From Halobacteriovorax marinus SJ (GTDB taxonomy: Bacteria > Bdellovibrionota > Bacteriovoracia > Bacteriovoracales > Bacteriovoracaceae): a stretch of 64,000 bases of DNA. Positions 26,988 to 31,557 of the stretch are shown here, in pieces. Within the stretch, counting starts at the first letter, position 1. Every line of letters starts with the position of its first letter. The DNA lies in NCBI RefSeq assembly GCF_000210915.2, contig NC_016620.1, positions 2,046,001-2,110,000 of the forward strand. Direction: 5' to 3'. Position numbers and translations under genes: made by a program. Under the pieces are notes generated by a model. It ran no database searches. It was not told the origin of the DNA and saw only the letters and a list, made by a program, of their open reading frames with translations.

Positions 26988-27416
26988 TTAATTACAGTAT
27001 TGCTCGTCGCTAAATTGAATTTCGTAAACATTGTCTTCTGTAGAAGGTACATCTTCTAGATCAAAAACTTTATGTCCCCAATCAAAGAGGTAGAGCTTAA
27101 GGTCTACTTTATCTGTAACATTAATTCCAATGGCCCTCATCGTTTCAGTAAAGTGCTCAGCAATTCTACACTTATAGTTCTTACCGTATAAGGCCTTTGC
27201 TTGCTTGATAATATCTTTGTAATCAACACCTTCAACCTCAATTAGAAAGTGTGTCTTATCTTCATCAAAGAACTCTGGATTTTTGACTTGTATATAGTCA
27301 CCTCTAACAGGCATCCAACCAAATTTAATATAAGTAAATGGAGTGGACTCTACTTCAACACTAGAAAAAGCAGGTGCAATAGAGAGAGTCATTAAAAGAG
27401 CTAGTAAAATCTTCAT
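26988..27416 (-). CDS. small secreted protein, function unknown
   Basis: A 142-residue protein with a signal peptide (MKILLALLMTLSIAPAFS). The mature part has two cysteines (YKCRIAE and the C-terminal QYCN), possibly one disulfide, and a mixed strand/helix pattern. It is convergent with the preceding gene with no bases between the two stops. No family was recognised. Confidence 0.6.
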   Translation of the reverse strand: MKILLALLMTLSIAPAFSSVEVESTPFTYIKFGWMPVRGDYIQVKNPEFFDEDKTHFLIEVEGVDYKDIIKQAKALYGKNYKCRIAEHFTETMRAIGINVTDKVDLKLYLFDWGHKVFDLEDVPSTEDNVYEIQFSDEQYCN

Positions 27417-27490
27417 GTTATACTTCCTTTGATATTAGTTATTTTTTCATATCAATTTACGTTTTACCATTTAGATGATAATAGTTTCAT

Positions 27491-29533
27491 ATGTCAAACA
27501 AATGTTCAAATAGTTTATATCTATATAAAAAACTACACGCTATGGCCCTTCTCATGTGTGCCAGCTCGCTATTTGCTAGTGAGACTATTGAAGCGCCATT
27601 AAAGCAAGAAAATCCCGATAACACAGTCTTTATTTATGGAGGACTTAATACCAAGTCCGGATTAATAGATTCTGCCGTGAAAACAGAAGTTTTAAGCTCT
27701 GAGGAAATAGAAGACTCTCACTATCAAAACCTTTCAGAAGCGGTTTCTGATATTGCCGGTGTTTCTGAAATCTCTGTCGATCGTCGTGGAGGAGCTAAGA
27801 CGGCACTCATCCAAGGCTTTGGAGAAAATAGTGTCCTCGTCATGATTGATGGTACACCCGTCTCACAAAATTCTTCATTTGGATTTGATCTCACACAAAT
27901 ATCTACAGAGAATATTGAGAAGATCGAAGTTATCAAGGGAGGGGCATCGGCCCTCTACGGAAGTCAGGCCATTGGTGGTGTCATAAATATAGTTACTAAG
28001 AAGCCAATCAATAAGCGAAAGACTTTTATAGACCTAAGCTCTTCAATGTCTGCTGATTCAAGTGATGCTAGACAAGTAAATGCAAAGGGCCTCTACAGCA
28101 ATAGACTTGGTGGCGTTGGTCACAAGCTCACTCTCTCCTACCGCAATCAGAACGACTATGATTTAAATGAAAATACTTACGCTAAAGACGGTCCAAAATT
28201 CTCTAAGTTCAATGGCTCTCTCTATCTAGATAAGAAAATTCAAAATAATACTCTCTCACTTGGTTATCTCTACTTCAATGACTATGTGAAATCCACATCT
28301 TCAAAACCATATGGTTCCAGTACATTTGGAGAGGTAGACAATGAGACAAAGACGCAAACTCACAATATAAAACTTCAAAATATCTATAAGTCAGGTAGTG
28401 CCTCTGTTAAAACTTATATCAACGCAGAGTTTATAGAAGATGACTTAAATTTAAACGATAACCCAAAGACTTACTTCAAAGAAACTCACAAACTCACTAA
28501 GTACGACTCTTATAGGGCCGAAGTTGTCTATGACGATACTATCTTTGATAATCATGCCATTACAACAGGTCTCCTCTATAAAGAAGATAGAGTTAATCAA
28601 GACACAATTACTCAGCAAACTGAAGATATTATTGTTGAGCATAGTGATATCGACCATAAGAAAGTTTGGTCACTTCAAGGCTATGTCCAAGACAATTACT
28701 TTAAAGAAAATTATGAAATCTCACCTGGCCTTAGACTTCAATACGATAGCAACTTTGGATATAACTTCGCTCCAAAAGTTAGCTTTAGCTTATTTAATGA
28801 GTTAAATGACTCTATTGAATCTAAAACCTGGCTCACGATTGGTACTGGACATAGATCACCATCAATAAAAGAGAGATACTTCACAATGGATCACTCTTCT
28901 GTGGCCAATTATATAGTCCAAGGAAATGAAAATTTAAGGCCAGAGAAATCCGTTAGTGTTCAGCTTGGAAATAAATTAGATATCAGCAGAGCGCACTCCA
29001 TCCATGGAAATATATTCTACAATAGGATCTCAGATTTAATTGAAACTACTGAGTTACCAAGTAGTAATAGCACCAAAATATTCTCTTATGAGAACTTTGA
29101 TAAAGTAGAGTCCTCTGGCATTGAGCTTGGATCTACATTAAAGGCCAATAGCTGGAATACACTTTCACTAAATTACTCATACACGGAAACCATAAATAAA
29201 CAAACGGGACTTCAATTGGCGGGAAGACCTCTTTATACTTGGAAAGCAAAGCATAGCATTTCTCCAACAGAGAATATTCAAGTTATAAATTCCCTACGCT
29301 ATATCGGAAGAAAGTACACGAACGAAGAAAATACAAAAGTATCTAAAGGCTATTCCTCTTTAGATACAAAAATTAATTACGCTTACAATAAGAGTATCAA
29401 TCTATACTTTGGTATTAACAACTTACTCAACACGGTAAAAGATCCTGCCAGCGATACTGTTATTGCAGTAAATGATGATAGACCATCACTTGGGCGACTC
29501 TTTTACACTGGCATACAATTAAAGGATTTCTAA
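27491..29533 (+). CDS. TonB-dependent outer-membrane receptor, probable heme/iron uptake
   Basis: A 680-residue precursor with a signal peptide ending near ASSLFAS. The plug domain is clear near residues 65-170: LSEAVSDIAGV, ALIQGF, VMIDGTPV, ENIEKIEVIKGGASALYGSQAIGGVINIVTK. A 22-strand barrel with alternating hydrophobic strands follows and ends in a C-terminal Phe (IQLKDF), as outer-membrane barrels do. A HmuY-like lipoprotein starts directly after the stop, so heme is the best substrate guess. The start lacks a ribosome site; an internal ATG at 27542 is a less likely alternative. Confidence 0.88.
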   Translation: MSNKCSNSLYLYKKLHAMALLMCASSLFASETIEAPLKQENPDNTVFIYGGLNTKSGLIDSAVKTEVLSSEEIEDSHYQNLSEAVSDIAGVSEISVDRRGGAKTALIQGFGENSVLVMIDGTPVSQNSSFGFDLTQISTENIEKIEVIKGGASALYGSQAIGGVINIVTKKPINKRKTFIDLSSSMSADSSDARQVNAKGLYSNRLGGVGHKLTLSYRNQNDYDLNENTYAKDGPKFSKFNGSLYLDKKIQNNTLSLGYLYFNDYVKSTSSKPYGSSTFGEVDNETKTQTHNIKLQNIYKSGSASVKTYINAEFIEDDLNLNDNPKTYFKETHKLTKYDSYRAEVVYDDTIFDNHAITTGLLYKEDRVNQDTITQQTEDIIVEHSDIDHKKVWSLQGYVQDNYFKENYEISPGLRLQYDSNFGYNFAPKVSFSLFNELNDSIESKTWLTIGTGHRSPSIKERYFTMDHSSVANYIVQGNENLRPEKSVSVQLGNKLDISRAHSIHGNIFYNRISDLIETTELPSSNSTKIFSYENFDKVESSGIELGSTLKANSWNTLSLNYSYTETINKQTGLQLAGRPLYTWKAKHSISPTENIQVINSLRYIGRKYTNEENTKVSKGYSSLDTKINYAYNKSINLYFGINNLLNTVKDPASDTVIAVNDDRPSLGRLFYTGIQLKDF

Positions 29534-30706
29534 GTGAAGATAATATTTCTATGCCTCTTATTTCTTACGCTATCGTGCTCAAAAGTTGAACCCTTAACGG
29601 CACCTGTAAAAGAGCAGAGCTACACAGACTTTATAACTAATAAGTCACAATATATAACAGACCAATCAAGTGATATTTTTGAAGAAACTCCTTGGTATAT
29701 CTACGATGAGAATAACCACATTATCTGGCCAACGTTCTCAGTCTACGCTCTTAGAACTAATTCGAAATATTATAAAGTTCAAATCCTTGATTACTATGAT
29801 AGCAGTGCGAACCCTGGAAATTATACTCTTCGAATCGCCGCTGAAAATGAAAGTGAAAAGATTTATTCTTTCAATGCCGCAGGTTGTGGCAATGTCTATA
29901 CCAATAGAGATTATGAAAGTTGTATGAATAATCCACTCACCAATATTTATAAGTATCTCAATATTGAAACTGGTGAAACTTATGACTATACAAGTGAGCA
30001 GGCTTTAGAGAGTAAGCAGTGGGATCTCGCCTTTAACGGAACGAGCATAAGAATTAATGCTGGAAAGTATGGAAAAAAAGGTGCCAGAATTGGAAGCCTC
30101 TTTATTTATACTGACTTCTTTCCTGGTGGTGTCGTCGATTACCAAAGAATTGCAGAGGTCTCATTCTCAGATAGGGGCTCACGCTTTTTCAATTTAGATA
30201 TGGACCTTAGAAATATCCCCTACGCTCTTCCGCCAGGAGTGGATAGAGTCATAAATGAGCCTGACTGGTTTTCAAGCGACGAGGTAGATCCAGATCTTTT
30301 TAAGGCGAAGAATGACAATTGGTGGCTTATAAGATCAAGTAGTGCTGACAGCTATTTTAAATTTAACGTTGCTGATATAAATGAAGTTAAAGATAGTGAC
30401 GGCAATATTGAAACGACAATAACTATAGAGAGCTACTACCAAGCCCCTGGAGAAAGTGAGTTCTCCCCATCTCTTCGCAGTTGGCAACTTGAATCCTTCT
30501 CTTCAGCTAAGCGATTAGTGCGCTTATGTTTGGACTTAGATCAGCAAGCTCTCGTTCATTGTTCAAAAGATAAGGCCAAGGTTGATTTAACTTTTATGGC
30601 CTTAAACCGAGAGCCAAGACAGTGGAAAATTCAGACTGCTAGTGGGGCCATAGGTCCACTCTCTCTCGAAGATATCTCCAGCAGAAGTACTGGAAAATTA
30701 GAATAA
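29534..30706 (+). CDS. HmuY-like heme-binding lipoprotein
   Basis: A 390-residue lipoprotein (GTG start right after the receptor stop). A signal peptide ends at a near-lipobox Cys15 (LTLSC). The HmuY hallmark is present: KQWDLAFNGTSIRINAGK near residues 161-178. Before it, about 68-103, lies the HmuY-type strand pair (YALRTNSKYYKVQILDYY), and a second such repeat occurs near 270-300. HmuY proteins bind heme at the cell surface and hand it to a TonB receptor. The axial histidines of Porphyromonas HmuY cannot be located by eye, so ligand binding is inferred from fold and neighbour. Confidence 0.75.
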   Translation: MKIIFLCLLFLTLSCSKVEPLTAPVKEQSYTDFITNKSQYITDQSSDIFEETPWYIYDENNHIIWPTFSVYALRTNSKYYKVQILDYYDSSANPGNYTLRIAAENESEKIYSFNAAGCGNVYTNRDYESCMNNPLTNIYKYLNIETGETYDYTSEQALESKQWDLAFNGTSIRINAGKYGKKGARIGSLFIYTDFFPGGVVDYQRIAEVSFSDRGSRFFNLDMDLRNIPYALPPGVDRVINEPDWFSSDEVDPDLFKAKNDNWWLIRSSSADSYFKFNVADINEVKDSDGNIETTITIESYYQAPGESEFSPSLRSWQLESFSSAKRLVRLCLDLDQQALVHCSKDKAKVDLTFMALNREPRQWKIQTASGAIGPLSLEDISSRSTGKLE

Positions 30707-30756: not shown

Positions 30757-31437
30757 TTAGCTTAAGTGCTTTCCAAGAATCCCAGCAAGTTCGAACATAG
30801 TAACTTCTTTCTTACCAAATACTTTCTTTAATAGATCGTCAGCAAGAATATTTCTCTTGTTCTTTGGGTTTTGAAGATTATTCTTTTTGATATAATCCCA
30901 CATTTTCTTTACAGCTTCAGTTCTAGGAACTGCTTTATCACCAATTACAGCCGCTAGGTCAGCAGATGGAGTCATGGCCTTCATAAATGCTGCATTTGGC
31001 TTTCTCTTAGTTTTTTTCTTAGCCGCTTTCTTAGCTACTTTTTTAGTCGCTTTCTTAGCTACTTTTTTAGTTGCTTTCTTAGCTACTTTCTTAGTTGCTT
31101 TCTTAGCTACTTTCTTAGTCGCTTTCTTTGCTACTTTTTTCTTAGTTGCTTTTTTAGCTACTTTCTTCTTAGTTGCTTTTTTAGCTACTTTCTTCTTAGT
31201 TGCTTTCTTAGCTACTTTCTTCTTAGTCGCTTTCTTAGCAACTTTCTTCTTTGTTGCTTTCTTTGCTACTTTCTTCTTAGTTGCTTTCTTTGCTACTTTC
31301 TTAGTCGCTTTCTTCGCTACTTTTTTCTTAGTTGCTTTCTTCGCTACTTTTTTCTTAGTTGCTTTCTTAGCTACTTTCTTAGTCGCTTTTTTAGCTACTT
31401 TCTTAGTTGCTTTCTTAGCTGTTTTCTTCTTTGCCAT
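30757..31437 (-). CDS. lysine-repeat (histone H1-like) protein with C-terminal SWIB domain
   Basis: Start chosen at ATG 31437, which follows GGAGG at good spacing; a longer frame exists upstream. The 226-residue protein has residues 14-142 made of 15 units of VAKKATKK(K), alternating 8 and 9 residues, like eukaryotic H1 tails and bacterial H1-like proteins that bind DNA through charge. Residues 143-226 are a SWIB/MDM2-type domain (AAVIGDKAVPRTEAVKKMWDY, ILADDLLKKVFGK, MFELAGILGKHL). SWIB domains occur in chromatin remodellers and in chlamydiae. A nucleoid-compacting or gene-regulatory role is likely but inferred. Confidence 0.85.
   Translation of the reverse strand: MAKKKTAKKATKKVAKKATKKVAKKATKKKVAKKATKKKVAKKATKKVAKKATKKKVAKKATKKKVAKKATKKKVAKKATKKKVAKKATKKKVAKKATKKKVAKKATKKVAKKATKKVAKKATKKVAKKATKKVAKKAAKKKTKRKPNAAFMKAMTPSADLAAVIGDKAVPRTEAVKKMWDYIKKNNLQNPKNKRNILADDLLKKVFGKKEVTMFELAGILGKHLS
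31012..31398 (-). repeat. in-gene tandem repeat encoding VAKKATKK(K)
   Basis: Fifteen 24/27-base units inside the SWIB protein gene. Units vary at synonymous sites (for example GTT/GTC partners and lysine codons), so the array is old enough to have diverged yet may still expand or contract. On the opposite strand it creates a long low-complexity frame that is not a gene. Confidence 0.95.
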
Positions 31438-31557
31438 GACATCCTCCAGAATACAAAATGACATTTTTCCAAACTAAATTTAACTTATCTATTAGTCTAA
31501 TCGAAAGAATACAAAAACACTTGAGTTTTTTTCACTTTTTAATGAATTTTTTTTAAG

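Follow-up and report, generated by a model that had tools for sequence, protein, structure and literature searches.

The closest described systems are HmuY/HmuR of Porphyromonas gingivalis and the HmuY-family proteins BfrB and BfrC of Bacteroides fragilis. Most known HmuY-type hemophores come from Bacteroidota, and the second conserved histidine of HmuR lies in the plug. Passages of PMC6200708 describe heme ligation by HmuY as including a mobile loop and the ligand histidines as varying across the HmuY family, and passages of PMC3792355 give as a hallmark of heme receptors a histidine between FRAP and NPNL boxes, with PhuR as a named exception. Literature searches returned nothing on Halobacteriovorax together with TonB-dependent uptake and iron and nothing on HmuY-like proteins in deltaproteobacteria; HmuY combined with Bdellovibrio gave only one paper, unrelated by its title. 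Here we describe a TonB-dependent receptor gene followed directly by a HmuY-like lipoprotein gene in Halobacteriovorax marinus SJ (genome of 3,437,906 bases in 2 contigs), located in a stretch of 64,000 nucleotides (NC_016620.1, positions 2,046,001 to 2,110,000; the window, to which coordinates refer unless another contig is named). The pair probably belongs to an iron-regulated heme-uptake module of Bacteriovoracaceae that resembles HmuY/HmuR and serves the gain of iron, a reading drawn from sequence comparison in which we infer heme to be the ligand.

An initial annotation of the window had proposed heme uptake by the lipoprotein and the receptor. This proposal is supported in part, by the family match, the histidine motif, the genomic context and a palindrome at the receptor start. 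The lipoprotein domain does not clearly have the conventional HmuY form. The annotation overlooked the divergent upstream gene and the palindrome.

The receptor and the HmuY-like lipoprotein

27491..29533, plus strand: TonB-dependent receptor, 680 amino acids (Pfam Plug and barrel; TonB-hemin as best NCBIfam model; fold matches)
28892..28894, plus strand: codon of receptor H468, between a FRAP-like box (HRSP, residues 454-457) and an NPNL-like box (NENL, residues 479-482)
29534..30706, plus strand: HmuY-like lipoprotein, 390 amino acids (Pfam HmuY, 3.2e-11; AlphaFold2 model; VIA-align)
29717..29719, plus strand: codon of lipoprotein H62 in PWYIYDENNHIIWP, candidate heme ligand

A check of open reading frames placed both genes where they had been annotated: the receptor frame runs from ATG at 27491 to a stop at 29531-29533, and the lipoprotein frame runs from GTG at 29534, immediately 3' of the receptor stop with no gap, to a stop at 30706, with AAGGA 7 nt upstream of its GTG. 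The junction ranges from a 4-base overlap to a 3-base gap in 16 copies from relatives. The lipoprotein matched PF14064 (HmuY) with an E-value of 3.2e-11 in two stretches, and at 44 bits against a gathering cut-off of 27 a chance match to HmuY was ruled out. By six-frame search the lipoprotein gene is the only one over the cut-off in this genome, the second match falling in the same gene region. The WDLAF...IRIN hallmark (lipoprotein residues 163-175) and two HmuY-type strand repeats (residues ~66-104 and ~263-305), both reported earlier, were located in the protein.

All 17 homologues keep the lipobox C15, and H62 is the sole invariant histidine of the alignment (17/17). Where HmuY binds heme through two histidines and Tfo through two methionines, this lipoprotein has one invariant histidine, H62, and no methionine present in at least 80% of the 17 sequences. 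We take H62 to map a few residues from His166 of HmuY, the mobile-loop ligand, although this is an estimate based on an extrapolated alignment and a numbering offset. On the receptor side, Pfam matches to Plug (5e-26) and barrel (2.4e-33) were obtained, and fold matches include PirA, FepA, Cir, PhuR, ChuA, ShuA and others. H468 is the one histidine that never varies across the receptor alignment (17/17) and lies between boxes that match FRAP and NPNL in part (HRSP here and YRAP in many relatives; NENL). Among the alignments listed, no histidine stands at this position in Cir, PirA, PfeA, FepA or the heme receptor PhuR.

PF14064 was found at an E-value of 1e-4 in 18 of 368 genomes of the phylum, 16 of which carry the same pair (17 copies, two of them in genome G086) and 2 of which carry HmuY proteins in another layout; a further copy of the pair, in G082, lies below this threshold. 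A degenerate-pattern scan of 84,980 species, which can pick up only proteins carrying the motifs of the family, returned 14 loci with no title outside this group (Halobacteriovorax, Bacteriovorax or Bacteriovoracaceae, some only Bacteriovoracia or Bacteriovoracales and one only Deltaproteobacteria). Thirteen of them are copies among the 16 mentioned above, and the extra one (L056) has a 1-base gap between the genes. Identities among relatives range from 29 to 75%, and this spread together with the common three-gene layout speaks against recent transfer, as from Bacteroidetes, into this genome alone. Pairwise distances of receptor and lipoprotein correlate with r = 0.96 (17 loci), and those of each with the third protein described below with 0.77 and 0.75, respectively (15 loci).

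Order of the halves in the HmuY domain

29729..29845, plus strand: residues 66-104, like the C-terminal half of solved HmuY proteins (profile alignments)
29942..30082, plus strand: residues 137-183, matching the N-terminal half of HmuY (Pfam, structural and profile alignments)
30245..30703, plus strand: second domain, residues 238-390, with invariant C332 and C343 and a strand pair like the C-terminal half at residues ~263-305

The comparison of a predicted structure with HmuY, a protein of all-beta fold, that the initial annotation had put forward gave a partial answer. For the AlphaFold2 model (predicted local distance difference test, pLDDT, 87.6; predicted template modelling score, pTM, 0.80), the four best VIA-align rows were all HmuY-family proteins: BfrC (Z 6.0), BfrB (5.3), apo-HmuY (5.1) and holo-HmuY (4.4). 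These scores are modest, with unrelated lectins following at Z 4.3 over 44-45 residues, and the alignments place only the N-terminal halves of the HmuY proteins (84-93 residues) onto residues 104-237. The best HmuY-family match of the model by Foldseek had an E-value of 0.016.

Alignments of the unaltered profile A1 (17 relatives) with solved HmuY proteins put the N-terminal half on residues 136-195 and the C-terminal half on residues 66-102, i.e. in swapped order, in all four alignments listed out of seven profile A1 matches, with C-terminal scores (7.7, 11.4, 4.9 and -0.5 bits) that are individually weak. A copy with its halves reordered outscored the native-order segment in 8 of 9 homologues (reordered/native bits: window 45.0/30.4, L027 47.3/25.6, L040 37.8/26.4, L036 38.7/32.7, L035 38.0/34.1, L034 48.2/34.4, L029 41.3/26.4, L042 39.3/25.2); joining two matching pieces tends to inflate the score, and the test indicates which C-terminal half fits better, not the fold.

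A conventional HmuY domain at residues ~137-305, to which the upstream strand pair would be an extra element without any permutation, would account for three further results: L031, the ninth homologue, reached 44.1 bits in native order and only 34.7 reordered; the native-order match extends past profile position 140 in 6 of 17 copies (G000, which is the genome of the window, G088, G089, G090, G095 and G107); and the one stretch listed for Tfo (6eu8, E 0.19) aligned with profile A1 in native order, which counts against permutation. We regard this arrangement as unlikely, given the eight homologues that score better reordered, the C-terminal halves of solved relatives that fall upstream of the N-terminal half in the four alignments, and the structural alignments to HmuY proteins, which end by residue 237. 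Taken together, the native-order run-on matches and the reordering results indicate that both strand pairs resemble the C-terminal half of HmuY, and these pairs are the two repeats of the initial annotation.

On this mixed evidence the HmuY domain is probably circularly permuted, with the C-terminal half preceding the N-terminal half, and we favour two domains that each begin with the C-terminal half. A nested form, in which one HmuY domain is inserted in another, is less likely because the structural matches end by residue 237. For the second domain, which has no known relatives, no Pfam match was obtained with two reordered copies, no HmuY was found in PDB with a six-sequence profile, and comparison with the first domain by hhalign was weak (probability 10.5% and 16.5%). 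A literature search for HmuY and circular permutation found no paper.

The receptor start, the third gene and the iron context

27456..27484, plus strand: promoter-like element, TTTACG, 17 nt and an extended -10-like box, TGATAATAG (intergenic regions of 16 loci)
27484..27499, no strand assigned: inverted repeat GTTTCA-TATG-TCAAAC over the receptor start codon, one mismatch from GTTTGA-N4-TCAAAC
26988..27416, minus strand: third member, a 142-amino-acid protein with a secreted-looking N-terminus, divergent from the receptor (profile A5)

The extended -10-like box and the inverted repeat over the start codon are common to all 16 intergenic regions compared, with the TTTACG box exact in 9 and the full GTTTGA-N4-TCAAAC match in 5. 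A scan for consensus promoters did not report this promoter. In each of the 16 regions the start codon, ATG or GTG, follows the -10-like hexamer by 6 nt, so that a leaderless receptor mRNA is possible. At none of 17 loci does a Shine-Dalgarno match of the receptor gene exceed 4 bases, which is weak evidence for a leaderless start because 4 of 5 other genes in the window have none by the same test. An RNA hairpin alone was disfavoured as an explanation of the repeat because one arm varies uncompensated while the other is fixed.

GTTTGA-N4-TCAAAC is enriched over its reversed pattern in 17 module-bearing genomes (76 against 15, 5.1x) and also in 17 other genomes of the family (48 against 13, 3.7x), and a module-specific element was ruled out by its enrichment in genomes that lack the module. 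An FNR site was ruled out on the spacing of the FNR consensus, and the palindrome is unlike the enteric Fur box. Neighbouring genes were read at 40 sites in 38 regions, hand-picked with some preference for the TATG spacer from 124 palindromes in 34 genomes, at palindrome sites rather than reversed-control sites and with 20 neighbouring proteins scanned. Genes starting near these sites encode FeoA (3 sites), Bfd (2), FumC (1), a siderophore synthetase (1), TonB (1) and a ChaN-type protein (1), and di-heme peroxidases lie near 4 (one also with imelysin), giving 13 of 40 sites of iron type; at the remaining 27 the neighbours had no clear iron link or were not checked. In addition to these 40, the palindrome is carried by the genome's own importer operon, its own FumC gene and the importer operon of G088. 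The sites include 27484-27499, G000:C1:818964 and 823906, L128, L129, L138, L139, L146, L149, L150 and L160. Judged by these neighbours, GTTTGA-N4-TCAAAC looks like a candidate iron operator of Bacteriovoracaceae, and the genome has one Fur-family protein. No report of such an element with Bdellovibrio was among the literature matches listed.

Two side observations were made at palindrome sites. All three FeoA sites (L138, L146, L150) have a divergent gene to the right of the site that encodes a small secreted-looking protein (94, 84 and 97 amino acids, respectively), and by blastp these proteins are related to each other. A membrane protein of fatty-acid-hydroxylase type (Pfam checked for L127 only), with no evident iron role, follows the palindrome at 4 sites in 3 genomes (L127, L147, L151).

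Profile A5 of the third protein found 18 places in 17 of 368 genomes, every one divergently beside the receptor/lipoprotein pair. The profile itself was built from 17 of these places, so that the new information consists of the distant G190 and of the fact that no place lies outside the module, with G113 and G363 (the genomes of the other layout) included in the search. C83, C141 and H115 are each kept in 16 of 17 sequences, the N-terminus looks by eye like a signal peptide, and no credible relative was found in Pfam, NCBIfam or PDB. Other neighbour clusters with at least 3 members link only small groups of loci. Downstream of the pair, positions 30757-31464 encode a histone-like protein of KKATKK repeats (235 amino acids; homologues of 252 in L045 and 185 in L027), whose repeat number seems to vary between relatives.

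Genes that could carry the ligand onward were found elsewhere in the genome and beside the module in relatives. An operon of four genes at ~819.0-822.4 kb encodes a periplasmic binding protein, a FecCD permease, an ATP-binding cassette (ABC) ATPase and a PNPOx/DUF2470 protein nearest to HutZ, with a perfect palindrome 21 bases upstream of its first GTG; in G088 the palindrome lies ~214 bases upstream of the importer operon. The third gene is followed directly in G082 by the same four genes, three for the importer and one HutZ/HugZ-like, in G086 by the first three importer genes (Pfam) and a HugZ-like match at fourth place, and in G036 by a HugZ-like gene alone. Three plug domains were found in the genome; the second receptor lies with TonB and a B12-type ABC system, and the third in a siderophore cluster (L070; G000:C1:540000-549000) with a lysine/ornithine monooxygenase and an IucA/IucC-type synthetase.

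Several results weigh against heme uptake. The best NCBIfam model of the receptor, TIGR01785 (heme/hemoglobin receptor, TonB-hemin), reached 153.9 bits against a cut-off of 316.85; the receptor profile matched Cir (3.6e-52) ahead of PhuR (8.8e-28), which siderophore receptors also outrank; and no plug histidine is present in at least 80% of the 17 receptor sequences, against two histidines described for HmuR. In the importer operon the ATPase is nearest to a heme ABC model below its cut-off (238.8 against 261), the PNPOx/DUF2470 protein reached 57.5 against a cut-off of 225 for HutZ, the permease has BtuC, a B12 permease, as its nearest model, below cut-off, and the binding protein fits a non-heme model best, followed by IsdE, also below cut-off. 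The G088 palindrome also stands 92 bases before a divergent gene. HugZ-like genes (E 1e-15) occur in 21 of 129 family genomes, namely in 7 of 16 module-bearing family genomes (G003 and G004 not among them) and in 14 without the module. A complete importer stands beside the HugZ-like gene in only four genomes (G000, G082, G086 and G088), the importer itself not having been searched for, and among 13 HugZ-like stretches 2 have an importer and 11 do not. The distance correlations arise in part because the genes share a species tree.

Some of these results would suit a module for a different iron chelate, for example a siderophore or a ferric complex derived from prey, taken up through a HmuY-type lipoprotein with a changed ligand. 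The solved receptors nearest in sequence are Cir, PirA and the enterobactin receptors, the palindrome neighbours indicate iron and not specifically heme, and the HmuY ligand histidines are not kept across the family in the account given by passages of PMC6200708. On the other side, H468 is invariant here and missing at that position in those receptors as aligned, the module is contiguous with ABC importer and HutZ/HugZ-like genes, and the genome has a separate siderophore receptor; we consider this alternative improbable. A module that supplies heme or porphyrin as a cofactor while the cell grows within prey, rather than as an iron source, would fit a host that is a predator. It would also fit HmuY itself, which passages of PMC6200708 describe as serving a heme auxotroph. 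Ferrochelatase was found in the genome, which agrees with the earlier claim that the organism makes heme for the one biosynthesis step checked, and both the iron-type palindrome neighbours and the HutZ/HugZ-like gene favour use of heme for its iron over use as a cofactor. Uptake as a cofactor appears very improbable.

For heme uptake serving iron gain, the following course may be proposed. Under iron scarcity a regulator, perhaps the single Fur-family protein, would leave sites of the GTTTGA-N4-TCAAAC type, including the one at the receptor start. The lipoprotein, anchored in the outer membrane, would catch heme with its HmuY-type domain of probably swapped halves and pass it to the receptor, which would hold it via H468 in an outer loop and import it with energy from TonB. 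The small divergent protein may belong to this pathway too, the simplest place for it being the periplasm, where it would act between the receptor and a HmuTUV-type ABC importer, and the HutZ/HugZ-like protein would free the iron in the cytoplasm. We put forward only tentatively, as doubtful, the further idea of a distinct class of heme acquisition in predators, defined by a permuted two-domain HmuY-type catcher whose heme site differs (PWYxYDxxNHIIWP), a periplasmic partner that is obligate and comes from a family undescribed in the libraries searched, and a leaderless receptor start inside an iron operator. If this is true, one repressor site would cover the receptor promoter and its translation start together.

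Comparison with known systems

In predatory Bdellovibrionota, the probably permuted two-domain HmuY form supplies specific genes for studying whether prey heme is a source of iron for predators, and the palindrome is a candidate for the iron operator of the family. As in P. gingivalis HmuY/HmuR, a gene for a HmuY-family lipoprotein adjoins one for a TonB-dependent receptor in which a histidine lies between FRAP/NPNL-like boxes, and heme transfer from lipoprotein to receptor is likely. Unlike in that system, the halves of the HmuY domain are probably swapped, a second domain is added (390 amino acids against chains of ~200), each protein has one invariant histidine rather than two, a divergent third gene is present, and the receptor gene comes first. 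The hmu operon of Bacteroidota includes the dechelatase HmuS, and the importer operon here contains a HutZ/HugZ-like gene. The nearest solved relatives of the lipoprotein are BfrB (8b6a) and BfrC (8b61) of B. fragilis (profile A1: 1.2e-9 and 6.1e-8; Z 5.3 and 6.0, respectively), which differ in chain length (214 and 238 residues) and in having the N-terminal half before the C-terminal half.

Within the same phylum, HmuY proteins of another layout follow a receptor gene directly at L039 (G113; 31.2 bits to PF14064) and L032 (G363; 56.9 bits). These proteins differ in length (199 and 560 amino acids, respectively), have their best stretch in native profile order, and come from genomes in which the third gene was not found. 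At L032 (5895-10563) the 560-amino-acid protein, with two HmuY stretches, stands after the receptor gene and before genes for a histidine kinase and a sigma-54 response regulator, an arrangement for which ligand sensing is possible.

The receptor shares its fold with PhuR, ShuA and ChuA, which are not known to have a HmuY-like partner and are distant in sequence (PhuR at 8.8e-28, behind Cir at 3.6e-52). FRAP and NPNL boxes with the histidine are found in most heme receptors, PhuR excepted (passages of PMC3792355). Against these systems the module is ordinary in principle, and it is unusual in the probable permutation of its lipoprotein, in its constant third protein and in the palindrome on its receptor start codon.

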